The notes below the pieces were generated by a model. That model saw only the letters and a list, made by a program, of their open reading frames with translations. It did no database searches and was not told the origin of the DNA. A stretch of 64,000 bases of DNA from Chitinophagales bacterium. GTDB lineage: Bacteria; Bacteroidota; Bacteroidia; Chitinophagales; Chitinophagaceae. Of this stretch, positions 1,385 through 51,772 are shown one piece after another. A program made the translations under genes and the position numbers. The stretch is taken from NCBI GenBank assembly GCA_013297995.1, contig JAAFJB010000003.1:1-64000 (forward strand). Reading direction: 5' to 3'. Positions within the stretch are counted from its first letter, which is position 1; every line of letters starts with the position of its first letter.

Positions 1385-1425
1385 GTAATTTAATTTCTTA
1401 ATTATCCACCACATACATATTTCAC

Positions 1426-3858
1426 ATGAAATTTTCTTTATACTACTTCTTACTTCTATTACAGCCCATACTGTTATTTTCTCAATCCTCACCAGATACC
1501 AAAATACGAACTACCCTAAAGTTCAATAAAGACTGGAAATTTATACTAGATGATAAGTCAGGATTTGAATCAGCCTTATTAGATGATGCAGCTTGGCGTT
1601 CACTGGATTTGCCGCACGACTGGGGCGTAGAGGGTAAATTTAATCAAAGCAATCCGGCACTTGGCAACGGGGCTTTTTTACCAACGGGTATTGGTTGGTA
1701 TAGAAAAATATTTGTATTGCCCGATTCATTAAAAGGCAAGAGAATTGCTATTCAGTTTGACGGTGTTTATATGAATTCCAAAGTGTATATTAATGGACAT
1801 TTTTTGGGACAATATCCTTATGGGTATTCAAGTTTTCAGTACGACTTGACTGAATTCATAAAGCCTGGTGAAAAAAATACTTTAGCCGTAAGGGTAGATA
1901 ATTCACTTCAACCAGCATCACGCTGGTATGCGGGTTCTGGTATTTACAGAAATGTATGGTTGATAGCAACCCATCCAATTCATTTTGATAATTATGCGGG
2001 AATATTTGTTACTTATCCTTCGGTAAGTAAAGCGCAAGCAGTAGTTAAGCTGCAATATAAAATAATAGCCAACGCATTTAAAGAATCTGAATTTCATTGG
2101 TGGCGAAGAAATATAAGCGCCAACAAACGAATAACAAAAGAAGCAACAATTACCAGCACCCTTTTTAATGCTGATGGTGTTGAAGTAGCCAAAGAAACAA
2201 CCAAAGAAATGATTGGTGATTTTAACGAGTATGATTTTACGCAAACTGTTGTACTTAAGCAACCCAAACTATGGTCAACAGATAGCCCATCTTTATACAC
2301 CCTTAAAACCAAGTTGGTTTATGATGGCAATATAATGGATGATTACGCTACCAATATTGGCATAAGAAAAGTTGAATTCACGCCTGAAAAAGGGATGTTG
2401 ATAAATGGTATTCCTGAAAAAATTAAAGGGGTTTGTCTTCACCAAGATGCGGGATCAATTGGCGTAGCGGTACCCATTGGTGTATGGCAGAGCCGACTAG
2501 AAAAGCTTAAACAAATGGGCTGTAATGCAATCCGTTTAAGTCACCACCCATTTGCACCTGCCTTTTATGATTTGTGTGATAAAATGGGCTTTTATATTAT
2601 GGATGAAGCATTTGATGAATGGAATAAGGGATATCCTTGGGGTAGTACCGAGAATACGTATGGAAAAATGAAGTATAGTTATCACTTGTATTTTAACCAG
2701 TGGGCAGAAACAGATTTGAGGGCAATGATTCGTCGTGATCGCAATCATCCATCCGTAATTATGTACAGTATTGGCAACGAAATTCCCAATCAACGTACGC
2801 CAGATGGAACAGCACTGGCAAGAAAACTACAAAATATTTGTCACGAAGAAGACCCCACCCGCTTGGTTACATCTGCGGTAGATTTTATAGAAGATGCCAA
2901 TGCAAATGGGTTTCTTTCGGTACTTGATATTGCAGGGTATAATTATATTGATAGGTATAATGGCAATGCTATGTATACTCCTGAAAGAGAAAAATATCCC
3001 AAGCGTTTGTTGTTGGGCACTGAAACCTTTCACCATACGGCAAACTGGCTTGCAGTGCGAGATCATGATTATGTAATTGGAGAGTTTGTATGGGTAGGGT
3101 ATGATTATATGGGTGAATCGGGAGATTGGCCGAAGCGAGGTTGGGATGCAGGTATTATTGATATGAGTGGACATAGAAGGCCCGAATATTACTTACGAAA
3201 AAGTTATTGGTCAAAAGATCCCGTGGTTCATATAGCCATTGAAACCGCTAAATCTCCCGAAGGAGAGTGGCATCCACGTAAAGCCGTTTCACATTGGAAC
3301 CACAATTGGAATGGCGATTATTTATTGCCCATTTATATTTATTCAAATTGTGATGAAGTTGAATTGAGTATTAATGATTCAATTATTGGTAAAAAAATAG
3401 TCGATAAAAATATATACTTCGCAAAGTGGGAGCTTCCCTACAAAGCAGGTAAAATAAAAGTCACTGGTTATATAAAGGGAAAAATAGCAACTTCACAACA
3501 ATTGCTAACAGCAGGAATTGCCTCATCCATTCAACTTAAAACTGCTACAACAAAACTAAAAGCAAATGGGGAAGATATTGTAGTAGTTGATGTATTCATA
3601 ACCGACCAAAACGGCACTATTGTTCCAGACGTACAACAAGAATTAACGATTGCCGTAACTGGCCCGGCCAAGCTTATTGGAATAGACAATGGCAGTCAAT
3701 CCGATACTGCTGATTTGAAAGGAAATAAGCGAAAAACTTTTGAAGGGCATTTGTTGATTACCTTGCAGTCCACCGAAAAATTGGGTGATATAAAACTTGA
3801 AGTGAAGGGCAGCGACCTTCAATCAGCCATATTAAATAATATTATATCAGTAAGGTAG
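1426..3858 (+). CDS. Glycoside hydrolase family 2 (beta-galactosidase-like), secreted
   Basis: Family 2 glycosidase, probably releasing beta-linked galactose or a related sugar outside the cytoplasm. Residues 1-20 form a signal peptide ending near FSQS. The order is: sugar-binding jelly roll (about 25-190), immunoglobulin-like domain (about 190-310), TIM barrel (about 315-600), then C-terminal beta-sandwich domains. The acid/base Glu is E452 in YSIGNEIPN, and the nucleophile is probably E533 in LLGTETFHH. RLSHHPFAP and YIMDEAFDEW are further family signatures. A Trp/Arg-rich insert (EFHWWRRN) in the second domain is unusual. The last 12 bases overlap the convergent exopolyphosphatase gene. 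Exact substrate specificity cannot be read from sequence. Confidence 0.92.
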   Translation: MKFSLYYFLLLLQPILLFSQSSPDTKIRTTLKFNKDWKFILDDKSGFESALLDDAAWRSLDLPHDWGVEGKFNQSNPALGNGAFLPTGIGWYRKIFVLPDSLKGKRIAIQFDGVYMNSKVYINGHFLGQYPYGYSSFQYDLTEFIKPGEKNTLAVRVDNSLQPASRWYAGSGIYRNVWLIATHPIHFDNYAGIFVTYPSVSKAQAVVKLQYKIIANAFKESEFHWWRRNISANKRITKEATITSTLFNADGVEVAKETTKEMIGDFNEYDFTQTVVLKQPKLWSTDSPSLYTLKTKLVYDGNIMDDYATNIGIRKVEFTPEKGMLINGIPEKIKGVCLHQDAGSIGVAVPIGVWQSRLEKLKQMGCNAIRLSHHPFAPAFYDLCDKMGFYIMDEAFDEWNKGYPWGSTENTYGKMKYSYHLYFNQWAETDLRAMIRRDRNHPSVIMYSIGNEIPNQRTPDGTALARKLQNICHEEDPTRLVTSAVDFIEDANANGFLSVLDIAGYNYIDRYNGNAMYTPEREKYPKRLLLGTETFHHTANWLAVRDHDYVIGEFVWVGYDYMGESGDWPKRGWDAGIIDMSGHRRPEYYLRKSYWSKDPVVHIAIETAKSPEGEWHPRKAVSHWNHNWNGDYLLPIYIYSNCDEVELSINDSIIGKKIVDKNIYFAKWELPYKAGKIKVTGYIKGKIATSQQLLTAGIASSIQLKTATTKLKANGEDIVVVDVFITDQNGTIVPDVQQELTIAVTGPAKLIGIDNGSQSDTADLKGNKRKTFEGHLLITLQSTEKLGDIKLEVKGSDLQSAILNNIISVR

Positions 3859-6891: not shown

Positions 6892-7389
6892 CTAAGAAAA
6901 ACTAGATTTTATTTGCCGAATAATGCCAGTAGTAGAAAATCCGGTTACTATTGGGTTTATAACCACCCTACCACCATTGGCCAGCACTTCTTTGGCACCT
7001 GCAATTTGATCTACCGTGTAATCGCCGCCCTTAACTATTACATCGGGTAAGATAGATTTAATTAGTTCTAGTGGGGTTTGATCGTTAAAAACTACCACAG
7101 CATCAACAATAGATAAGTTGCTGAGCAGTAGGGCTCTACTGGTTTCTTTATTGATGGGGCGCTCTGGCCCCTTTAGTGCTTGCACGCTTTTATCGCTGTT
7201 AATTCCAACAATCAAGTAATCAGCTTCTTTGGCTGCTTGGGATAAGGAAAAAATATGCCCTTCATGTAAAATGTCAAAACAACCATTTGTAAATGCTACG
7301 GTTTTGTTGGTAATGCGCCAACAGGCCAGTTGTTTTAATAAATTTGAAAGGGTGAATATTTTTAGGGGAATGGTATTAATTGCTCTCAT
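6892..7389 (-). CDS. D-glycero-beta-D-manno-heptose 1-phosphate adenylyltransferase (stand-alone RfaE2 domain)
   Basis: Nucleotidyltransferase that activates heptose-1-phosphate with ATP to give ADP-heptose, a precursor of the lipopolysaccharide core. The HxGH-type signature is seen as FTNGCFDILHEGHIFSL. PDVIVKGGDYTVDQIAGA and the GFSTTGIIRQIK end are typical of the RfaE domain II. At 165 residues it is only the adenylyltransferase half; the kinase half of HldE is not in this window, as is common in Bacteroidota, where the two are separate proteins. The ATG overlaps the end of the upstream flippase-like gene by 14 bases, so the two are translationally linked. Confidence 0.9.
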   Translation of the reverse strand: MRAINTIPLKIFTLSNLLKQLACWRITNKTVAFTNGCFDILHEGHIFSLSQAAKEADYLIVGINSDKSVQALKGPERPINKETSRALLLSNLSIVDAVVVFNDQTPLELIKSILPDVIVKGGDYTVDQIAGAKEVLANGGRVVINPIVTGFSTTGIIRQIKSSFS

Positions 7390-22767: not shown

Positions 22768-24264
22768 CTATTTAGTAAAGAGTAAGGAGTTGCTCCTATA
22801 CCCACTGGCCGTATTTGTGTTCCAATCTCTATAGTCTCTACCTCCAGACGCTGCCCAGCCAAAGAATTTCAAATAAGCATTTCCGATGGATTGCTGTTCA
22901 ACTGGATATACAAAATTGTCCATAAAATTTAGTGCCCAAGGATAGTTCTGCTTGGTAACAAAATAAATATTACTAGCGGGAGTAGTGTTGTCAACTCCTT
23001 TGCCAAACTGTGTTCTATCAATTAAATCGGTAGGTAGCATGCCCGGAAGGTGAACTTCAAATCCTCTTTTCTTATCGCAAATAATAAAGGGATTAAATGG
23101 AGCAGCACCAAAGCTAGCATTACTAATGGGTGAAGCCAATGCAATGGTTAATCGAACGGTATCACCCGTTACTTTGGCCAAGCTCATATCAGTATTAATC
23201 ATTGGAGAAGCCGCAGAAACAGGTCTGATAAGCGACCTACAATTATCAAAAGGCACAATTACGGCATTGGTTTGACTAGCTTCGGTTCCATTTGCATTGA
23301 GTCTGATATAATTATCTGTATGTCTGTAACCCGTTACGCTTTGAATTTTATTAGCAGCAAAAGGTAATTGAACCCCAAAACCATTTTGGAAAGTGGCGCC
23401 ACTTGCAATGGGTGCAAAACTTCCGTACAAATCAACTACTTCATTACTACCACTAGAAACCCATTTGTATTGATATTTAACCACTAAATCATTTAAGTCG
23501 TAATCACCAGAAACAGGCCATTGGTCTTCAAAAGCTATGCTTGCCCAAGTGGTTTTGCTGGGGTAGTAATTGGTGTATGCTCTCCTAGAATCGTTAGGAA
23601 ACTCATCAAGCAAATCGGTAACCATTTCAGCCTCAATAGCATCATTTGGTTCCATTACAGTGGGGCGACCATCTGCATCATAAGGAGATAAATAGCTGAA
23701 CACTGTATTAGTGGTTACTCCGTTAATGGTTGCGTTGCCTCTAACTCCATTACTATTGCTGCGAACATAGTTTCTCTCAGCAGCGGGATTAGCCACACTC
23801 ATTGATCCCACAATGGCACCTGTAAACGTTTTACTTCCGCCAATAGTACCTGTAATAGAATTATTGGTAATTACTGCCTTTGCATTTTTAATCAATCCAA
23901 TATATTTGGGGTCAATTATTAATGTGTCTATGGCAGCAGGAACACTAATATTAGCAATAAAGCGGCCACTTGCATCGGAAAATCCTGTAAAAATTTTGTC
24001 GCCCAATACCCCTTTACTTTTAATGGTATAAACGCTCAAAGGAACTCCTTTTAACGGTTGGTTGGTATTGGTTTGAACTGTAATATTTACGGCTACTGTT
24101 TTGGATGTCACAAATGCAAATCCATCTGGAGCAATTTTTTCAAGTGGGGTTCCCTGTTGTAGGTCTTGTTCAATTTTTTTCTGACAAGCAAAAAAAGCTA
24201 GAGACGATATTAGAACCAGCGTCAATAGTGAGTTTAAGGTTAATGGTAAGCGGTTGTTTTTCAT
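22768..24264 (-). CDS. LruC domain lipoprotein
   Basis: Large exported lipoprotein of 498 residues. The signal sequence ends at the lipobox LAFFAC (Cys about 27). Residues about 60-130 look like a carboxypeptidase-regulatory-like beta-sandwich (VNITVQTNTNQPLKGVPLSV, then GFSDASGRF). The C-terminal half carries the LruC signature FEDQWPVSGDYDLNDLVVKY and ends with an Asp/Trp-rich strand (FFGWAASGGRDYRDW). LruC proteins are surface-associated and of unknown function. It is probably monocistronic, closed by the palindromic terminator at 22724. Confidence 0.88.
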   Translation of the reverse strand: MKNNRLPLTLNSLLTLVLISSLAFFACQKKIEQDLQQGTPLEKIAPDGFAFVTSKTVAVNITVQTNTNQPLKGVPLSVYTIKSKGVLGDKIFTGFSDASGRFIANISVPAAIDTLIIDPKYIGLIKNAKAVITNNSITGTIGGSKTFTGAIVGSMSVANPAAERNYVRSNSNGVRGNATINGVTTNTVFSYLSPYDADGRPTVMEPNDAIEAEMVTDLLDEFPNDSRRAYTNYYPSKTTWASIAFEDQWPVSGDYDLNDLVVKYQYKWVSSGSNEVVDLYGSFAPIASGATFQNGFGVQLPFAANKIQSVTGYRHTDNYIRLNANGTEASQTNAVIVPFDNCRSLIRPVSAASPMINTDMSLAKVTGDTVRLTIALASPISNASFGAAPFNPFIICDKKRGFEVHLPGMLPTDLIDRTQFGKGVDNTTPASNIYFVTKQNYPWALNFMDNFVYPVEQQSIGNAYLKFFGWAASGGRDYRDWNTNTASGYRSNSLLFTK

Positions 24265-24675: not shown

Positions 24676-25011
24676 ATGTACACAGTATATATAGATTTTG
24701 AGCAAAAAGGATTGGAAAAGCAAGTGATATCTAATATTGAAGCAGATCAGAGTATTTTAGAAGTATGCTTGAATCATGGAATTGAACTTCACCATAATTG
24801 TGGAGCAGTTTGTGCTTGCAGCACCTGTCACGTTTATATTAATAAAGGAGCAGAATGTATTGCCGAGCTAAGTGATAGAGAAGAAGATTTTATTGATAGG
24901 GCTGTGAATCCACGAATCAATTCTCGATTGGGTTGTCAGTGCGTATTAGAACCGGGATCTGGGGAGATCCATATTTTATTGCCCGATCAAACACAATTTC
25001 TAGGTGAATAA
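24676..25011 (+). CDS. fdx: 2Fe-2S ferredoxin, adrenodoxin/ISC type
   Basis: Small electron carrier of 111 residues. The cluster ligands follow the pattern Cys-x5-Cys-x2-Cys: C42, C48 and C51 in NCGAVCACSTCHVY, with the fourth at C87 (or C89) in RLGCQC. LSDREEDFIDRAV and the closing EIHILLPDQ match the ISC-type ferredoxins that supply electrons for iron-sulfur cluster assembly. The next gene encodes IscX, which strengthens that role. The rest of the isc operon is not in the window. Confidence 0.93.
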   Translation: MYTVYIDFEQKGLEKQVISNIEADQSILEVCLNHGIELHHNCGAVCACSTCHVYINKGAECIAELSDREEDFIDRAVNPRINSRLGCQCVLEPGSGEIHILLPDQTQFLGE

Positions 25012-25036: not shown

Positions 25037-25273
25037 ATGAACCACTTTGAACCTCCCATTTATTGGAACGATCATGAAGATATTGCCATGAAACTTTATG
25101 AGCGTTTTGGAAATGATTTTACGGAAGCAAAAATCTACCGCATAAGGTTTACCGATTTATTAAATTGGATTTTAGAAATTCCAAGATTTGAAGGTACAAA
25201 GGATCAAAGTACAGAAGGGCATCTTGAAATGATACAAAGTGCTTGGGTGTACGAATGGAGAGATAACCAGTAA
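25037..25273 (+). CDS. iscX: Iron-sulfur cluster assembly protein IscX
   Basis: A 78-residue acidic helical protein of the IscX/YfhJ family, which binds iron and modulates cysteine desulfurase IscS. The conserved opening is IYWNDHEDIAMKLYERFG, followed by FTDLLNWILEIPRF and the closing MIQSAWVYEWRD. It sits 25 bases downstream of the ferredoxin gene, as in the proteobacterial isc operon order fdx-iscX. It is complete. Confidence 0.93.
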   Translation: MNHFEPPIYWNDHEDIAMKLYERFGNDFTEAKIYRIRFTDLLNWILEIPRFEGTKDQSTEGHLEMIQSAWVYEWRDNQ

Positions 25274-25294: not shown

Positions 25295-25435
25295 ATGCTT
25301 GCGCAACTGAAAAATATATTAGTGTTTGTTTTAGACGTTGATGGGGTTTTAACAGACGGTACATTATTGGTAATGCCTAATGGGGTATTGATTAGGAAAA
25401 TGAATATCAAAGATGGATACGCCCTTCAACTGGCT
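25295..25435 (+). pseudogene. kdsC: Truncated kdsC (KDO-8-phosphate phosphatase), N-terminal 47 codons only
   Basis: The first 47 codons encode the start of a HAD-type phosphatase: the nucleophile motif LDVDGVLTDG with D14 and D16, then LIRKMNIKDGYALQLA, which is typical of 3-deoxy-D-manno-octulosonate-8-phosphate phosphatase. KdsC proteins are about 165-175 residues and need later motifs (Ser/Thr, Lys and a second Asp pair); none follow. After Ala47 the reading frame enters sequence that belongs, in another frame, to a UbiA prenyltransferase, and ends at 25513. The enzyme would normally complete KDO synthesis for lipopolysaccharide. It is almost certainly inactive. Confidence 0.85.
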
Positions 25436-26187
25436 ATATTATCAATGATTATTTCGATCAAAATATTGATGAGATTAATAAGCCAGAAAAAATGGTGGTT
25501 AATCGCATTATAAAAAGGCGTTGGGTTATTTTCTGGCATTTATTATTAAGTATGGCAGGGCTATTTATTACCATGCTGGCTTTGCCCATGGCAGGTTTTT
25601 GGCACTTGGTTCTTGCGAATATGCTCGCCATTATTGCATTGTGGTTTTATTCAACCAATTTAAAAAAACAATTTCTGATTGGTAATATACTCATCTCACT
25701 GCTCACATCTTGGGTTTTATTCATATTGTTTTTTTCAAAATACCCCCTTAATTTACAGGAACTAATGCACGTAGAGCACCAGCGGGTTCGATTTTTTAGG
25801 CTCACCATTTTATATGCTGCCTTCGCATTTATTATTTCATTAATTAGGGAGGTAGTAAAAGATATGGAAGATATGGAAGGGGATAGAAAATATGGGTGTA
25901 GAACCCTCCCTATTGTATGGGGTATTCAAGCTACTAAAGTATTTGTAGCAGTCTGGATAGTAGTACTGATAGGCTTGTTACTCGCCCTTCAAATATATGC
26001 GCTAGGAATGGGGTGGTGGCAAAGCGCCTTGTATTGTGTATTATTAATTGTTATTCCACTTATTGTAGTACTTAAAAAATTATTCAGTGCCGCTTCTCCA
26101 AAAGAGTATCACCAAATGAGTAACCTCATTAAAATAGTTATGTTTACGGGTATCTTATCTATGTTTTTTTTTAGACTATACAATTAA
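25432..26187 (+). pseudogene. 5'-truncated UbiA-family prenyltransferase (geranylgeranylglycerol-phosphate geranylgeranyltransferase-like)
   Basis: From 25432 the frame reads GYIINDYFDQNIDEINKPEK, the first Asp-rich prenyl-diphosphate site of UbiA enzymes, and continues through several membrane helices to the second site DMEDMEGDRKYG and TLPIVWG. The roughly 50-65 residues normally before NDYFD, including the first membrane helix, are missing, and a stop at 25393 closes the frame upstream. The first in-frame ATG (25492, giving 231 residues) lies after the first catalytic motif, so any translated product would lack it. The 251 codons that remain are otherwise intact and show no other stops, which suggests the loss is recent. 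Confidence 0.85.
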
Positions 26188-26191
26188 TAAA

Positions 26192-26782
26192 ATGCAATTG
26201 CCTACCATAATATTAGCCTCGCAGTCGCCCCGAAGAAAACAATTGTTGGAATGGGCAGAAATACCCTTTAGAATAGTAGTACAGCCTACCGATGAAACCT
26301 ATCCTTCTGATTTATGTACCGAGCAAATTCCAATATATATAGCACAACAAAAAGCAAAAGCAGTTAAAGCGCATTTATTAGGAGCTGGCGAATGCTTGGA
26401 AAATGAAATCATACTTGCAGCAGATACAATTGTGGTGACCCACTCTGCTGTATTAAATAAGCCAAAAGATAGAGCTGATGCAATTGCCATGCTAACCCTT
26501 CTCAGTGGAAATGAACACCGAGTTATTACAGGAGTAGTACTGCACAAAAATAATATTGAAAAGCAATTTTCTGTTACAACCCATGTTCAATTTCACGCGC
26601 TTTCCCAAGCGCAAATTTGTTTTTATGTTGACCAATATAAACCTTACGACAAAGCAGGTGCTTATGCCATACAAGAATGGATTGGCGTAACGGGAATTGC
26701 AGCCATTAGAGGCGATTTTTACAATGTTATGGGCTTGCCGGTGAGCACAGTTGTTCAAGCATTGCATACATTAAATTCTTAA
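26192..26782 (+). CDS. maf: Maf family nucleotide pyrophosphatase
   Basis: House-cleaning enzyme hydrolysing dTTP/UTP or modified nucleoside triphosphates. Signatures are ILASQSPRRKQLLEW at residues 6-20, the catalytic Asp in ILAADTIV, LSGNEHRVITGV and the Lys/Asp-bearing YKPYDKAGAYAIQEW with GIRGD-like AAIRGDFYNVMGLPV. Length 196 is normal. It starts four bases after the ubiA remnant, so it was probably part of the same operon and may now depend on transcription through the damaged region. Confidence 0.95.
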   Translation: MQLPTIILASQSPRRKQLLEWAEIPFRIVVQPTDETYPSDLCTEQIPIYIAQQKAKAVKAHLLGAGECLENEIILAADTIVVTHSAVLNKPKDRADAIAMLTLLSGNEHRVITGVVLHKNNIEKQFSVTTHVQFHALSQAQICFYVDQYKPYDKAGAYAIQEWIGVTGIAAIRGDFYNVMGLPVSTVVQALHTLNS

Positions 26783-29431: not shown

Positions 29432-30388
29432 ATGCAAGAATTGCCCGTAGTTCAGAAAATTTCAACAGATACCATTCTTTCTACCGACCAACCTCTAAAA
29501 AAGCCCAATTGGCTGAGGGTGAAATTACCATTTGGTGAAAATTATAAGCAGGTGAGGGGCTTGGTTGACACGCATAAATTACATACCATCTGCGAGAGCG
29601 GAAATTGTCCCAATATGGGCGAATGTTGGGGAGAGGGTACCGCTACATTTATGATACTGGGTAATGTGTGCACTAGAAGTTGTGGATTTTGTGCGGTGGC
29701 TACCGGGCGGCCAGGAGCCGTAGATTGGGATGAACCTCAGCGCGTTGCCGAAGCTATTCATTTGATGAAGGTAAAGCATGCGGTGATTACCAGTGTAGAC
29801 CGGGATGAGTTAAAAGATGGTGGCTCCATTGTTTGGTTCAACACCATAAAAGCTGTTAAGAGTTTAAATCCCGAGACTACTTTGGAGACCTTGATTCCTG
29901 ATTTCAGGGGATTTAAAGATCAGATTCAGCGAATAGTAGACGCGGCACCAGAAGTGGTAAGTCACAATATGGAAACCGTAGAGCGAATTACCAAACAAGT
30001 AAGAATTCAAGCAAAATATAGGAGAAGCCTGGAAGTGCTAGAGACCCTGCACAAAGGCGGTATGCGTACCAAAACAGGCATGATGCTTGGCTTGGGTGAA
30101 ACCAAGGAAGAGGTAATAGAAAGCATGCATCATTTGGTAGCAGTAGGTACTGATGTACTTACATTGGGACAATACCTTCAACCCTCAAAAAAACATTTGC
30201 CCGTTCAGCGTTTTGTTCACCCCGATGAGTTTGCGGAGCTAAGGGAAATAGGGTATTCTATTGGGTTTGATTATGTAGAAAGTGGGCCCTTAGTACGTTC
30301 ATCCTATCATAGTGAAAAACATGTAATACCCGGATATGGAAAAAATAAATGGTTAGAAGGGAAGCAATCAATTCCAGCCATTTTATAG
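29432..30388 (+). CDS. lipA: Lipoyl synthase
   Basis: Radical-SAM enzyme inserting two sulfurs into octanoyl groups to make lipoyl cofactor. The auxiliary cluster ligands are C54, C59 and C65 ([14 protein letters not shown]), and the radical-SAM triad is C80, C84 and C87 ([10 protein letters not shown]). The C-terminal RSSYHSEKH provides the conserved Ser ligand of the auxiliary cluster. The start is placed at the ATG at 29432, giving 318 residues; the open frame reaches a TTG at 29408, but that overlaps the promoter box. The stop lies six bases before the duplicated ROK-gene tail. Confidence 0.97.
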
Positions 30389-30394
30389 TTCAAC

Positions 30395-30526
30395 TTATTT
30401 CATCTCCCAAACCAACGCAGAAGCTCCTAAAATAGCTGCGTCTGATTCCTTTAAATGGCTTTTGTACTGATTGGGAATATTTGTTTGACCAGCACAGTAC
30501 GGCATAGTTACGTTGAGTTTATACAT
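30395..30526 (-). pseudogene. Detached copy of the ROK-kinase C-terminal coding end
   Basis: Positions 30396-30461 are identical to the 3' end of the ROK kinase gene at 31740-31805, and the frame still reads SHLKESDAAILGASALVWEMK before the stop. Upstream it is fused to 22 unrelated codons beginning at an ATG at 30526. A 43-residue product is possible on paper but has no promoter or known domain. It is best read as a duplication scar. Confidence 0.85.
30396..30461. repeat. 66-bp perfect direct repeat, left copy
   Basis: Identical to 31740-31805 over 66 bases; similarity stops sharply on both sides. It contains the last 21 codons of the ROK kinase gene. Starting seven bases after the lipA stop, it marks the left boundary of a 1344-base insertion (counting one repeat copy). 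Confidence 0.97.
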
Positions 30527-30607
30527 TATATTACATTTTAAGGGTTAGTCTATTTATGTAAAACAGCTAATTTTTTAATCTATAATAAAAACGATAAAAC
30601 CAAAAAC

Positions 30608-30930
30608 TATGAAAACTCTATTTTTAGTATTCGTTAATTTTTCTTTTGTTTTTATGGGGTTATCCCAGCAAAATAATATTGAATACGATTTCCCAATAAG
30701 ACCAAATACAAAAGACTGGCAGGCTATAAAATCAATTGATGAAATGTATGCTGTTTGTCAAATTCCTGAAAATATTTTATAAAATAGCTGCATTATTGGG
30801 TTCTGAAACCATTAAATCAAAGGCTCAGAATACAGATATAGCAATATTTATCACAACGGGATTGATGAGAAATCGGGTTGTTGTGAATGATATTATTTTA
30901 TTATCCTCTAAAATTTCTACCAATGACTAA
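30608..30930 (+). pseudogene. Internally deleted paralogue of the downstream lipoprotein
   Basis: The ATG at 30608 opens a secreted protein of 57 codons (signal peptide MKTLFLVFVNFSFVFMGLSQ, then YDFPIRPNTKDW and EMYAVCQIPENIL) that ends at a TAA at 30779-30781. A different frame then resumes with YKIAALLGSETIKS and LMRNRVVVNDIILLSSKIS to 30930. The first piece aligns with the N-terminal part of the downstream protein (YIYPVKPGTDAW, MYKICQVP) and the second with its C-terminus (YIAALQND, YNKIITLAQQF). The middle of about 130-170 codons is missing, with a frame change at the join near 30780. The remnant's stop overlaps the next start (ATGACTAA). Confidence 0.75.
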
Positions 30931-31738: not shown

Positions 31739-32734
31739 CTATTTCATCTCCCAAACCAACGCAGAAGCTCCTAAAATAGCTGCGTCTGATTCCTTTAAAT
31801 GGCTTACCAATATCTTCACTTTATTTTGAAATACTTGTACCAAATTGGCTTCCATATATTCTCGGGTGGGTTTCAAAATAAAATCACCTGCTTTGGTTAA
31901 TCCTCCAAAGAGAATAATGGCTTCGGGGCTGGAAAACATGACTGAATTTGCCAAGGCCATTCCCAATATTTTACCCGTAAATTCAAATATTTCTTTGGCC
32001 AATTCATCGCCATTCATAGCTGCTTCATACACCGCTTTTGAGTCAATTTCTTCGGCTGGAATATTTTTTAATGAGCTGGGCGTATCTGTTTTTTGTAAGA
32101 ATTCTAAGGCGGTAAGTCTCACCCCAGTAGCAGATGCATAGCTTTCTAGTGAACCTCTTTTTCCAGTGCCTTCGTGGTAACGGCCATCGGGAATAATAAT
32201 GGTATGACCTAACTCACCTGCAAAACCATCGTGACCATATACCAATCTTCCATTGGCAACTATACCACTTCCTACGCCAGTTCCAAGCGTAATCATAATA
32301 AAGTCTTGCATATCTTTTGCAGCTCCATACATCATCTCTCCAATGGCAGCAGCATTGGCATCATTGGTAAGTACAACTGGAAGCTTGAACTTTGTTTCTA
32401 TCATTTCACCCATTGGAATAATGCCTTTCCAATTTAAGTTGGCAGCATATTCAATAGTGTTCTTATAAAAATTGCCATTAGGCGCACCCACTCCAATACC
32501 TTTTATTCTACCCACACCTCCAGCCTGTTCAATAAAAGGAGAGAGGCTGCTGTACAATTCCTCAATAAATGTTTCGGGGGTAGCATGTTTTTTGGTACTC
32601 AATTTCCCTGAAAACAATAGGTTGCCTACTCGGTCTACTATTCCAAATTTGGTGCCCGTACCTCCTATATCTATGCCTACTGCCAATTGTTCTAAGGCTT
32701 GATTAGATCTGCCCATTTCTTTCTTTTTGTTCAT
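31739..32734 (-). CDS. ROK family sugar kinase (glucokinase-like)
   Basis: Phosphorylates glucose or a related hexose. The ATP-binding start is VGIDIGGTGTKFGIVDR, and the catalytic Asp is in VLTNDANAAAIGEM; LGTGVGSGIV and GELGHTII with the sugar-binding His are also seen. The zinc motif CxCGxxGCxE typical of ROK proteins is replaced by EGTGKRGSLE, so it cannot bind zinc in the usual way. The gene follows a sugar transporter on the same strand after 46 bases, giving an import-phosphorylation pair. Its last 66 bases are duplicated at 30396-30461. Confidence 0.9.
   Translation of the reverse strand: MNKKKEMGRSNQALEQLAVGIDIGGTGTKFGIVDRVGNLLFSGKLSTKKHATPETFIEELYSSLSPFIEQAGGVGRIKGIGVGAPNGNFYKNTIEYAANLNWKGIIPMGEMIETKFKLPVVLTNDANAAAIGEMMYGAAKDMQDFIMITLGTGVGSGIVANGRLVYGHDGFAGELGHTIIIPDGRYHEGTGKRGSLESYASATGVRLTALEFLQKTDTPSSLKNIPAEEIDSKAVYEAAMNGDELAKEIFEFTGKILGMALANSVMFSSPEAIILFGGLTKAGDFILKPTREYMEANLVQVFQNKVKILVSHLKESDAAILGASALVWEMK
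31740..31805. repeat. 66-bp perfect direct repeat, right copy
   Basis: Right copy of the repeat, forming the intact 3' end of the ROK kinase gene. The first base that differs is 31739 on the left and 31806 on the right. No target-site inverted repeats or recombinase gene are visible between the two copies. Confidence 0.97.
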
Positions 32735-32780: not shown

Positions 32781-34223
32781 TTAATGAGATTCTCCCATTT
32801 TTACATCATAATCTATTCCTTGTGCTTTTAAGATTGATTTAGATTTAATGGCATAAAATGCAAGGTATGCAAAACAAATAACCCCAATAATATAACTGTT
32901 TTGTATCCCTAAAACAGCATCAGCAGCAAGTTCTCCTTGAAGGGTGCTAATAATACCTCCACCCATAATCATCATAATAAGTAGACTACTGCCTTGATTG
33001 GTGTTTTTTCCCAGTCCCGCCACAGCCAAAGTAAAAATACAGGGCCATAGCGTGCTACAAAACAATCCAACACTGGTAAAAGCATACACACTTAACATAC
33101 CTGTAGTAAACATTCCTATAAGGGTTGCGGTAATGCCGAATACTGAAAAAATTAAGAGCATTCGGGCGGGACTACCTTTGCTCATTATATCACCTATTAT
33201 CATTACTATAATTACAAATCCATAGGTATAAAACATGCTAATATCATGTTGGGCAATGGCATTAACAGCAAGGAAAACACCAAAAGCTAGGTAGGGCATT
33301 AAAAATTTTAAGATTTTCTTTGTGCCCATACTCACATCAAATGCACCAACAGCTCCCGTCCACCTTCCCATCATTAAACTAGCCCAGTACAAAGAAATAA
33401 AGGGTGCAATTTTCTCAGTACCTACCCCCATTTTTTGGGTCATATATTCTGGTAAGTTACTAGCAGTAGAAACTTCAACTCCCACGTACACAAATATACC
33501 AATCATCCCTAAAATCAATTGCGGATAACTAAATGCAGAACTGCGATCTGCAGTTGCTAGCTCCGTTTCATTTACTACAGGTTTAGCAGGCTCAATTTTA
33601 TTGGGAATAGAAGAGAATTTAAAAAAAACAGCTACTACTACAAACGCAATGCCCAATATTAAGTAAGGGGTTTTTACACTTTCAATACTGGCTATATTAG
33701 ATCCATTAGAAACGCTTCCAAAAATAGCAAAACTCACCAGCAATGGGCCAATGGTGGTGCCAAAATTGTTTACGCCACCACCCATACTCAGTCTTTGCGA
33801 ACCTGTTTGTGGGTCTCCAATTGCAATGGTTAAGGGGTTGGCAGCAATTTGTTGAAGCGAAAATCCAAGACCTACTATAAACAATCCTGTTATCATTAAA
33901 GTGAAGGAAGCGTTATTAGCGGCAGGATAAAATAATAAAGTACCAATAGCGGAAATGATTAAACCCAGTGCGATGCCATTTTTGTAACCTATTTTGTTCA
34001 ACAAATCATCTCCCAATATTTTAGAAACAAAAATATAAATGATGGATCCTACTGTATAAGCCACATAAAATGCAAGTTGTACGTATTGGCTTTGTGCCTG
34101 CGAAAGATTAAATGCTTTCTTAAAAACGGGAATAAGAATATCATTGCTGGCAGCAACAAATCCCCAAAAAAAGAAAACAGTAATCAGTGTTCCAAATTGT
34201 GACCATTTAGTGGGTTGACTCAT
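32781..34223 (-). CDS. Sugar:H+ symporter, FHS/FucP-type MFS transporter
   Basis: A 480-residue inner-membrane transporter with 12 hydrophobic segments, resembling the fucose/glucose/galactose symporters. The N-terminus LITVFFFWGFVAASNDILIP carries the FHS-family Trp-Gly-Phe and Asn-Asp residues, and helix 4-5 has GLGFSLQQIAANPLTIAIG. Helix 10 region shows SVGLFCSTLWPCIFTLAVAG. The substrate is probably a hexose, given the ROK kinase downstream on the same strand. A leftward TAnnTTTG box lies about 55 bases before the start. Confidence 0.92.
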   Translation of the reverse strand: MSQPTKWSQFGTLITVFFFWGFVAASNDILIPVFKKAFNLSQAQSQYVQLAFYVAYTVGSIIYIFVSKILGDDLLNKIGYKNGIALGLIISAIGTLLFYPAANNASFTLMITGLFIVGLGFSLQQIAANPLTIAIGDPQTGSQRLSMGGGVNNFGTTIGPLLVSFAIFGSVSNGSNIASIESVKTPYLILGIAFVVVAVFFKFSSIPNKIEPAKPVVNETELATADRSSAFSYPQLILGMIGIFVYVGVEVSTASNLPEYMTQKMGVGTEKIAPFISLYWASLMMGRWTGAVGAFDVSMGTKKILKFLMPYLAFGVFLAVNAIAQHDISMFYTYGFVIIVMIIGDIMSKGSPARMLLIFSVFGITATLIGMFTTGMLSVYAFTSVGLFCSTLWPCIFTLAVAGLGKNTNQGSSLLIMMIMGGGIISTLQGELAADAVLGIQNSYIIGVICFAYLAFYAIKSKSILKAQGIDYDVKMGESH

Positions 34224-37844: not shown

Positions 37845-40628
37845 TTAAAATCCACTATTTGAAGGGTTGCCATTTTTGCTGAAATTCCAAATTAAAGAGC
37901 ATAAGAAAAATCGTTGTATATTTTGATTGGTTGTTTCAGAAACAAAGTTGCTGTTTACATTTCTATTAATGCCAAGGTTCTGGTTGAACAAATCGCTAAC
38001 GGCTGCTTTTACTTCCCATTTATCGTTTTTAGAAATCACTTTTCTAATAGAAGCTCCCACTATATAAATATCTCTTTGATCTGCAAATACAGCTGTTTTC
38101 TGGTAAATATTGGCTTCCAAATTAAAGTCGATATAGGTCTTTATTTTCTTTAGCTTAAACTGTAAGTTGGCATAAGTGGTGTAAGACCAAAATTTAGTAA
38201 TTGCGGTAGGGCGTATAGAGCTTTTTGAATGATTGTAATTGGCATCAAAATTCACATAAAAATTAATCCATTTATCGGACCAATACCCACCATTAATACT
38301 AAAATTAAAACTTGTGTTTTCTGTAATATTGTCTATCCCATTTACTCTATTGGCAAACCTATTTTTTCTAGGGCCTGCATCAAAATTCAAATTAAAAGAC
38401 GGAATTATTTCAAAACCAAAACCTGCTTCCGCACTAATACTGTAATTGCCTGCCACATTTATAGCTTGGTTAACCCTTCTTCCAATACTGTCTACAAAAC
38501 TCGAATTTGAAATGGCATTTTCTGTTTTATTATAATTAAAACTAAAATTCATTCCCCTACTTTTTAGTACTTTATAATCTGAAGCTCTAATGCTAATAGT
38601 GTGTACAAAAGCTTGGCGTAAATTTGGATTCCCTATGGCTAAATTTAACGGATCAATATTATCTATAATTGGTTGAATTTGTGCTAGGGTTGGATTTCTA
38701 GTAGTTCCTGTATAATTAAATGTAAATCTTCTTTGTTGTTTGGGGGTGAAATTTAAACTAAGGGAAGGAATAAAGTTATTGAATATAACATTTCTATCGG
38801 TTTGCTTTTCCAGGTCTTTTAATCTATAATTTACGGTACCAATTCCTGTTCCAATAGAAAAATTAAATTTCTTTACGTTGTAACGGATGTTTAAACTTCC
38901 TGTATGCCCTGTTGTATTAAAGATGAAATTATTACTTAGTGTATCTACTAGATTTTCGTATTTGCTACTTCCTAAGTTTTTTTCGAGTGTATTTCTTTGG
39001 GCTTTGTTTTGACTAAGATTTAAACGGTAATTCATTACCAAAAAAGTGTTTTTCCAAATAGGTTCTGTATAAGTAATAGCGGACGTAATATTGGAAACAT
39101 TTTGTTTATTTATTTTTTGCTGATCTATATTGTCGCGCCTTACAAGCAATCCGGATTGGTTAAAAAAACTATTATCTGCCAACAGAAATCCATTTTCTTC
39201 TCTATTATTAAAATTCAGGTCGTTATTTAGAGAAATGCTCCTTCCTGCTTTTTTGAATTTTTTTCTATAAAATACATTGGTGTTCATGGTTCGGTTATCG
39301 TCTATATTTGCGGTGCTTCTATCTGTGGCATTAATAACAATTCCCTTATCGCTAATGGCTTGTCCTAAAAATGAAGATCGGTTGTTGCTATTTACAATAG
39401 AGCCCCTGGCAGTAATTTTAAGAGAGCTGCTAGAATCAATTTGCCATTCATAAATGCTCGTGAGTTTATTCCGTTTTTTATTACTTATTTGGTCTTGAAC
39501 ACTGGTATTTACAAAGCTGGTATCGGGTAAAATATTTTGTGTTTTATTAGTAGTAACCCCTCTTACTTCTAATTGATTAAATTGATAGGTATTGTTGGTA
39601 TTATACTTGTCTTTGTTCCACTTATTACTAAAATGCAATCCTCCTGTTGTAGAATTGGGAAAACCATTCCCCCAACTAAATTCGTCTCCATTCCAGCTCA
39701 TGCTAATGCCCCCGTCGTCGTTTACATTGGTAGACATATTGGTTTCTCCACCATAGTTTCTATTTTCATCCCAGTTTAAAGATTCAAATTTGGTGTTATC
39801 GGTGGTTAAGTAGCCAGAAATTTTTCTTTTTCCTTTAAATGCATTTCCTAAGAGTTTGCCATATCTATATCGGTCAAAATCGCTTCCAGCTTCGGCTTTG
39901 CCAAAAAATCCTTTTTTCTTGTCTTCTTTTAAAGTGAGGTTTAAGGTTTTTATTTTTTGACCATCATCAATTCCCGTAAAAACAGCTTGGTCGCTTTTTT
40001 TATCAAAAGCCTGCACTTTATCAATGGCATCTGCTCGTAAATTTTTGGTAACTACCGCTGGATCATCACTAAAAAACTCTTCCCCGTCTACCAACACTTT
40101 TTGAACCCTTTCGCCTTGGGCGGTTATTTCTCCTTTACCATTTACCTGAATGCCGGGCATTTTGCGCAACAATTCCTGAACATCAGCATTGGCACTTACT
40201 TTAAAACTATCTGCTTTGTATTCTGTGGTGTCTCCTTTCATGCGAATAGCACTTATTCTCTGGCGAACAATCACTTCTTGTAAAAGGGTGGCTTTGGTAA
40301 TAACAGCAATGGTTCCTAAGTTTTTCAACTCATTTTTTTCTACCACTATAGGATCAATATAATCGGCATATTTAGGATAACTTACCATTACAAGGTATTT
40401 GCCTGGCATTAAATTATTAAGTTCAAAACTTCCATTATTTAATGTTCTTGTAAACATTACCAATACGGAATCTTTTTGTCGCAATAATGCAATTACTGCA
40501 TTGCTCAATTGTTGTTTGCTAATGGTGTCAGTTACTATGCCTTTTATTGAGGCTTTATTTTCTTGAGCAGAAAGGGTAAAATAATTGCAACAGATTAGTA
40601 CAATCAGTAAGGTTTTTCTCAGTCTCAT
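37845..40628 (-). CDS. Outer-membrane beta-barrel protein with carboxypeptidase-like N-terminal domain (TonB-receptor-like)
   Basis: A 927-residue outer-membrane protein. After a signal peptide (residues 1-21, ending LSAQ) comes a carboxypeptidase-regulatory-like domain (ASIKGIVTDTISKQQLSNAV), then a plug-like region (SANADVQELLRKMPGIQVN with VLVDGEEFFSDDP), and a long barrel of alternating strands ending in an aromatic-rich C-terminus. This layout matches the OMP_b-brl_3 group rather than SusC, and no SusD partner is nearby. No TonB box is obvious. The GLPGLI gene follows with no gap. Substrate unknown; peptide or metal uptake or secretion are possible roles. Confidence 0.88.
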   Translation of the reverse strand: MRLRKTLLIVLICCNYFTLSAQENKASIKGIVTDTISKQQLSNAVIALLRQKDSVLVMFTRTLNNGSFELNNLMPGKYLVMVSYPKYADYIDPIVVEKNELKNLGTIAVITKATLLQEVIVRQRISAIRMKGDTTEYKADSFKVSANADVQELLRKMPGIQVNGKGEITAQGERVQKVLVDGEEFFSDDPAVVTKNLRADAIDKVQAFDKKSDQAVFTGIDDGQKIKTLNLTLKEDKKKGFFGKAEAGSDFDRYRYGKLLGNAFKGKRKISGYLTTDNTKFESLNWDENRNYGGETNMSTNVNDDGGISMSWNGDEFSWGNGFPNSTTGGLHFSNKWNKDKYNTNNTYQFNQLEVRGVTTNKTQNILPDTSFVNTSVQDQISNKKRNKLTSIYEWQIDSSSSLKITARGSIVNSNNRSSFLGQAISDKGIVINATDRSTANIDDNRTMNTNVFYRKKFKKAGRSISLNNDLNFNNREENGFLLADNSFFNQSGLLVRRDNIDQQKINKQNVSNITSAITYTEPIWKNTFLVMNYRLNLSQNKAQRNTLEKNLGSSKYENLVDTLSNNFIFNTTGHTGSLNIRYNVKKFNFSIGTGIGTVNYRLKDLEKQTDRNVIFNNFIPSLSLNFTPKQQRRFTFNYTGTTRNPTLAQIQPIIDNIDPLNLAIGNPNLRQAFVHTISIRASDYKVLKSRGMNFSFNYNKTENAISNSSFVDSIGRRVNQAINVAGNYSISAEAGFGFEIIPSFNLNFDAGPRKNRFANRVNGIDNITENTSFNFSINGGYWSDKWINFYVNFDANYNHSKSSIRPTAITKFWSYTTYANLQFKLKKIKTYIDFNLEANIYQKTAVFADQRDIYIVGASIRKVISKNDKWEVKAAVSDLFNQNLGINRNVNSNFVSETTNQNIQRFFLCSLIWNFSKNGNPSNSGF

Positions 40629-40687
40629 AAGTTCTTATTCAGCAGTTAGCTGATTTTGTTGTAAATTTCAATCATCTTTCAAAATTG

Positions 40688-50683: not shown

Positions 50684-51772
50684 TTATAGTTTGTGGTAAA
50701 AATCAATCAGTTTAACAGATTCGTTCTCCCAATTCAGTACGGCACCTGCCTCTAGTGCTGCGTTGCGGAGATTCTGATAGAGAACATCATCTGCCAACAA
50801 TTTGTTCAAAGCAGCTGCAATTGATTTGGGTTGAAGATCACTAATGAGAAGTGCAAAGGGGTATTGGGAAACAATTTCTGCATAAAGTGGGTAATCCACA
50901 CAAAGTTGCGGCGTTCCAGCCATCATATAATCAAAAAAACGGTTGGCCAACGAATAGTACTGGTTAACTCCCTCCCGCTCAAAAATTGTAATGCCTATAA
51001 AAGCCTGTTGGGTAATTATGCGGAGGGCTGCGGGCAAAATAGTACCCTTGAGAAATACCTTGTGAGAAAGCTGGTATTGCGCTATTAAAGCTTTGGTTTG
51101 CTCCATAAAATTACCCTCTCCCACAATCCACAATGGGGCATCTACCCATTGCATGGCTGGAATTAATTGCTCAAAACAACGACCTTTATTCACAGCCCCT
51201 TGATATAAAATATATTTACTAATTAATTGATTATCAATTTTTTCTAATGAATACTTAAACTGAATATTTCGTATTACTTTGTAATGAACCCCATAGTTTT
51301 GGTTGAATAATTGGGCGAGCCGGCTGTTCACGGTATATCCTTTTTTAAAATAAGGCACTGCAAAACTTTCAATTGCTTTCCAAAACCATTGTATTACTGG
51401 CCTCTCCCTCACTTCCTTCTGTTCGGTAAAATATTCGTGCGCGTCGTACACCCTTTTTTTACCCCTAAAAAAAGACGCAACTAATACGGGCAGAATGGTA
51501 TCAAGGTCAATGGCGCAAATGACATCACAGGGCTGAAACAGCAGAAAAAACAGCAGACGGATATTATATTCAAAGTAAAAAAGCGGCCCTTTCTGAAAGA
51601 AACAGTTTAGTCGCTTTTTACGGTATTGTTCAATTTGCAAAGGATCTGAATTGTTTCTCTCAACCCCTACTAAAATAACCGCATAGCCGATGGACTGTAA
51701 GCTGCTGCAAATACGGTGCATCCGTTGGTCGTAGTTGAGGCTGTTGGTTACTGTAAAAACAATGGTTTGCAA
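50684..51772 (-). CDS. Glycosyltransferase, GT-B type
   Basis: Second glycosyltransferase of this pair, 362 residues from a TTG start (no ATG is available upstream of the conserved N-terminus). The first domain begins TIVFTVTNSLNYDQRMHRI and includes VYDAHEYFTEQKEV, a frequent acceptor-side motif. The second has YILYQGAVNKGRCFEQLIPA, WIVGEGNF and YYSLANRFFDYMMAGTPQL, the nucleotide-sugar region with an Asn/Asp-rich loop in place of the classical Glu-x7-Glu. It runs directly into the next glycosyltransferase, so they probably act in the same glycan. Confidence 0.82.
   Translation of the reverse strand: MQTIVFTVTNSLNYDQRMHRICSSLQSIGYAVILVGVERNNSDPLQIEQYRKKRLNCFFQKGPLFYFEYNIRLLFFLLFQPCDVICAIDLDTILPVLVASFFRGKKRVYDAHEYFTEQKEVRERPVIQWFWKAIESFAVPYFKKGYTVNSRLAQLFNQNYGVHYKVIRNIQFKYSLEKIDNQLISKYILYQGAVNKGRCFEQLIPAMQWVDAPLWIVGEGNFMEQTKALIAQYQLSHKVFLKGTILPAALRIITQQAFIGITIFEREGVNQYYSLANRFFDYMMAGTPQLCVDYPLYAEIVSQYPFALLISDLQPKSIAAALNKLLADDVLYQNLRNAALEAGAVLNWENESVKLIDFYHKL

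Follow-up and report, generated by a model that had tools for sequence, protein, structure and literature searches.

A join between the head of kdsC and the tail of ubiA, probably left by a short-repeat deletion, in a Sediminibacterium-like Chitinophagaceae genome

In the window, the whole 64,000-nucleotide stretch of DNA analysed here (C109:1-64000), genes are arranged in the order ferredoxin, iscX, kdsC head, ubiA tail and maf, and the two in the middle are each only a part of a gene. This locus raises the question of whether the join was made by a deletion in living cells, by the assembly, or by a rearrangement that left a working product. The window belongs to a draft of 3.23 Mb in 185 contigs, rated at 98.77% completeness and 0.87% contamination. 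Sediminibacterium sp. C3 and S. salmoneum are among the best-matching named organisms for its UbiA tail, and we therefore regard the source as a Sediminibacterium-like member of the Chitinophagaceae. A search of 147 genomes for the genus, with the source genome counted among them, gave G079 as the one with the closest UbiA tail; this relative is used for most comparisons below.

Structure of the join

At 25430-25437, kdsC breaks off after its first 47 codons and is followed by the tail of a gene for a UbiA-family prenyltransferase, read in a different frame (Table 1). The alignment of the window to G079 falls into two pieces that overlap at these positions, and on either side the match extends as far as the join. 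G079 has an intact iscX-kdsC-ubiA-maf arrangement, relative to which the window is 607 bp shorter. The initial annotation had described a deletion scar fusing kdsC to ubiA, with approximately 0.55-0.65 kb missing; the place, the frame break, the short overlap and the size of the missing segment are all confirmed against G079. The kdsC head (25295-25437) and the ubiA tail (25430-26187) have the 8 bases CTGGCTAT in common. The intact G079, a relative and not a known ancestor, has TTGGCCAT and CTGGCTAT, two short stretches resembling each other, and the deletion ends there form only an imperfect repeat of 7/8 bases or fewer.

The kdsC frame starts with an ATG at 25295 and continues out of the family to a stop at 25513, giving 72 codons. 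As the initial annotation had it, the frame is clear up to codon 47 (DGYALQLA); it departs from the family after codon 47-48, and the later motifs of the HAD scheme are absent. The window thereby resembles the KdsC/YrbI-family KDO 8-phosphate phosphatases (TIGR01670) in the head, including LDVDGVLTDG, and in the operon neighbours, whereas the last two thirds of the enzyme are missing. The segment DVDG is presumably the first HAD motif. The whole-protein score of the remnant against TIGR01670 is 35.6-38.5 bits, under the curated cut-off of 106.95.

In the case of ubiA, the frame (GYIINDYFDQNID...) matches the family from 25432 to its stop at 26187. Its first ATG, GTG or TTG, at 25492, is located downstream of NDYFDQNID, which we take to be the first Asp-rich motif of UbiA enzymes, so that there is no usual start ahead of this motif; the initial annotation had made the same point. 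The tail occupies profile positions 69-293 of 293 in NF009513 and scores 235.8 bits, under the cut-off of 288. Its 251 C-terminal residues, 84% identical to G079, are those of a UbiA-family GGGP geranylgeranyltransferase-like prenyltransferase (NF009513, NF009512), from which the remnant differs in lacking the first ~60-66 codons and in scoring under the curated cut-offs. Upstream, the ferredoxin gene is full length in comparison with G079 and three other relatives (G017, G037 and G011).

Table 1. Features around the kdsC-ubiA join, with window coordinates
Feature	Coordinates	Strand	Evidence
ISC-type 2Fe-2S ferredoxin gene, intact, upstream	24676..25011	+	best NCBIfam match TIGR02007, 76.7 bits, under cut-off 132.1
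iscX, intact	25037..25273	+	TIGR03412, 62.8 bits, over cut-off 40.4
kdsC remnant (first 47 codons)	25295..25437	+	TIGR01670 profile positions 3-49 of 154; codons 1-48 of intact KdsC matched by tblastn
junction	25430..25437	+	8 bases CTGGCTAT, overlap of left and right alignments to G079; 607 bp missing in the window
ubiA remnant (251-codon tail)	25432..26187	+	best models prenyltransferase NF009513 and GGGP geranylgeranyltransferase NF009512
the one ORF in the ubiA remnant with an ATG, GTG or TTG start (231 aa, without NDYFDQNID)	25492..26187	+	PF01040, 59.6 bits
maf, intact, downstream	26192..26782	+	TIGR00172, 140.9 bits, over cut-off 117.15

The locus in relatives and the rest of the assembly

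The distance from the GYALQLA end in KdsC to GY.IND in UbiA is 579-604 bp in 7 relative loci and -4 in the window, as obtained by a pattern search that counted loci with both motifs and missed those on the opposite strand, which the comparison of 37 congener loci covers. The join is absent from all 80 named loci, which are the best 80 among the matches listed, and from all 37 congener loci; the two sets overlap and have some genomes in common. This agrees with the expectation in the initial annotation that relatives keep the iscX-kdsC-ubiA-maf order intact. Among these best 80 named loci, 73 have a KdsC match over at least 159 of the 171 query positions, situated 12-193 bp upstream of the UbiA match, and in four more KdsC is truncated where the contig ends (L070, L081, L093 and L115). 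The other three (L106, L109 and L124) have no KdsC in the examined stretch by UbiA; hence, the kdsC-ubiA pairing is not universal. KdsC is present in 36 of the 37 congener loci, being cut at a contig end in L015 and L021, and the remaining locus (L010) starts at a contig end inside UbiA. Across the sampled congeners, this UbiA is found in 58 of 60 genomes and KdsC in 55 of 60, those without them being 56-78% complete, and both genes are present in all 35 other good-quality sampled congeners. No examined relative shares the join, which as far as seen is private to the source genome. Given the presence of both genes in those 35 congeners, their simultaneous loss is unusual.

The initial annotation had proposed a search for a second homologue of each gene. 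For kdsC, neither a second family member nor an intact allele was found in the assembly, the family profile search retrieving only the remnant; a full-length KdsC query gave one additional match, of 43 residues with an E value of 0.097. The assembly contains three other UbiA-family genes, none of which, scanned by its matched stretch and not as a whole ORF, fits the same subfamily models strongly; one of them is a heme O synthase over its cut-off (220.7 vs 210.3 bits). The remaining two were considered as a substitute UbiA and rejected, since no NCBIfam model gives either of them more than 47.0 bits, vs 235.8 bits for the broken ubiA. No UbiA gene of the assembly other than the broken one matches the GGGP-transferase-like models strongly. 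UbiA-family matches number 1-5 per genome in the sampled congeners and 4 in the source genome.

KdsA and GGGP synthase are both over their cut-offs in the assembly, and a WaaA-type N-terminal domain is found. The heptose adenylyltransferase that the initial annotation placed at 6892 scores 185.0 bits against TIGR02199 (cut-off 181.5). The kdsB gene is split over two contig ends (C121:1-463 and C114:1-355; L140 and L141), neither piece being over the family cut-off, with exactly 125 bases shared between the ends. For the start of C109, the contig end examined, no overlap partner was found.

Age of the event and soundness of the surrounding sequence

Among alignment columns with at least 95% conservation in relatives, 0/65 in the ubiA tail and 0/15 in the kdsC head are changed in the window, a weak test, as the median relative also has 0 changes. 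In the neighbours, the corresponding counts are 0/50 in ferredoxin, 1/51 in iscX and 1/69 in maf. Relative to G079, pN and pS are 0.092 and 0.696 in the ubiA tail and 0.117 and 0.720 in the kdsC head, and the pN of the neighbours ranges from 0.035 to 0.216; pS is near saturation, so that the ratios of pN to pS are rough, and most of that divergence is older than the deletion. An old, decayed scar was rejected, with no conserved-column changes in the remnants and pN far below pS. Since neither remnant has decayed, the event is either recent, unfixed or an artefact.

A generally error-ridden contig was likewise considered and was not seen in a comparison of 50 non-overlapping window ORFs of at least 100 codons, a set that leaves out the shorter kdsC remnant, with the corresponding stretches of G079, G017, G037 and G011. 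A match was obtained for 43 of them, including ORF 1402-3855 with a remote match only (23%), and 7 had none. Among these 43 comparable ORFs, the ubiA tail is the only headless or frame-broken one in the window, and the gene cut by the window end is a complete ORF of 2033 aa on the contig.

Several length differences of other kinds were observed along the window. The presumably glycosyltransferase-like protein of 50684-51772 is shorter than its matches in G017, G037 and G011 by ~40 residues, in frame. The product of 32781-34223 is full length relative to G079; in G017, G037 and G011, 44%-identical proteins that are perhaps not orthologues exceed it by ~53 residues, again in frame. On the minus strand, the gene at 22768-24264, whose protein we assume to be LruC-like, has ~200 residues fewer than in G079, in frame, as an internal gap on a 205-residue scale, with a DNA offset of 615 bp at 23607-23623. 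G079 also possesses an extra open frame of 327 codons that separates the lipA-like gene from the one that follows, absent from the window (30388-30887). These two places at which the window is shorter than G079 (22768-24264 and after 30388) look older than the kdsC-ubiA join, their flanks appearing blurred. Downstream of the lipA-like gene, both the window and G079 carry a partial copy, ~70 bp long, of the 3' end of another gene (30393-30461 and 31739-31808), which we take to be ROK-kinase-like. Synteny with G079 stops inside a putatively receptor-like gene at ~37845-40634, which is cut short in G079 and full length in three other relatives.

Origin of the join and its meaning

Taken together, the deletion-scar interpretation of the initial annotation is supported at the sequence level, and the join probably originated in a short-repeat deletion, recent and specific to this lineage, by which both kdsC and ubiA were inactivated. 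Such an event would have removed ~607 bp, comprising approximately the last 124 kdsC codons, the spacer and the first ~60-66 ubiA codons, most likely via slippage or end-joining between the two short similar stretches. The out-of-frame join would leave a 72-codon KdsC-headed ORF and a headless UbiA ORF. Judging from the missing parts, neither product is expected to be a working enzyme, as the initial annotation had also supposed. Short-repeat deletions, by slippage or microhomology, make pseudogenes, and the present case resembles them in its sharp join, up to 8 shared bases, restriction to one lineage, intact relatives and out-of-frame fusion; nothing distinctive sets it apart, and it happens to strike two genes together. 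Weighing against this origin are the retention of both genes in the 35 good-quality congeners, the imperfect repeat in G079 and the three named loci in which KdsC does not adjoin UbiA. As a type of event, the deletion is ordinary and not a new genetic system.

Considerably less probable is a join that is an artefact or a minority variant, generated by a chimeric library molecule, by a gap-closing merge on a short overlap or by a deletion in part of a mixed population. The fragmentation of the draft and the conservation of both genes in the good-quality congeners are consistent with such an origin, and the split kdsB, in the same pathway, indicates that the assembly breaks genes elsewhere. Furthermore, the remnants look as constrained as the intact neighbours, and their undecayed state fits an artefact equally well. 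However, the 125-base overlap of the kdsB contig ends suggests, from this one contig pair, a long-word graph assembler. Assemblers of this type do not join on 8 bases; hence, some reads probably carry the junction. The absence of a second allele from the assembly and of any other comparable break among the 43 ORFs also argues against an artefact, and living cells presumably carry the deletion. It is very improbable that the rearranged locus is still functional, producing a 231-aa UbiA from the ATG at 25492, possibly with its translation coupled to that of the short ORF upstream. The ORF is open and still matches PF01040, its start overlaps the end of the upstream ORF, and its conserved columns are unchanged; but this product would have lost the initial helices together with the first Asp-rich motif, and a recent loss accounts for the conservation equally well.

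With regard to viability, one report discusses kdsC of E. coli as dispensable, with possible isozymes or a nonspecific phosphatase (PMC4086706), and another describes lowered LPS in a Keio kdsC mutant (PMC7327039). Because kdsC can be lost in E. coli, going by these two reports, its loss in the window genome need not be lethal. The initial annotation had named three outcomes, a replacement phosphatase, an altered lipopolysaccharide or an assembly error, each of which may apply. For UbiA, PMC9235831 concerns that of the ebo cluster, a different locus.

The organism may tentatively be regarded as a natural knock-out, although this is doubtful: it would have KDO-containing LPS without any KdsC-family phosphatase and would live without the GGGP-transferase-like UbiA of its congeners while retaining GGGP synthase. 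If real, this natural double loss would bear on whether Bacteroidota, like E. coli, can dispense with KdsC, and on the role of the conserved GGGP-transferase-like UbiA, given that GGGP synthase is still encoded.
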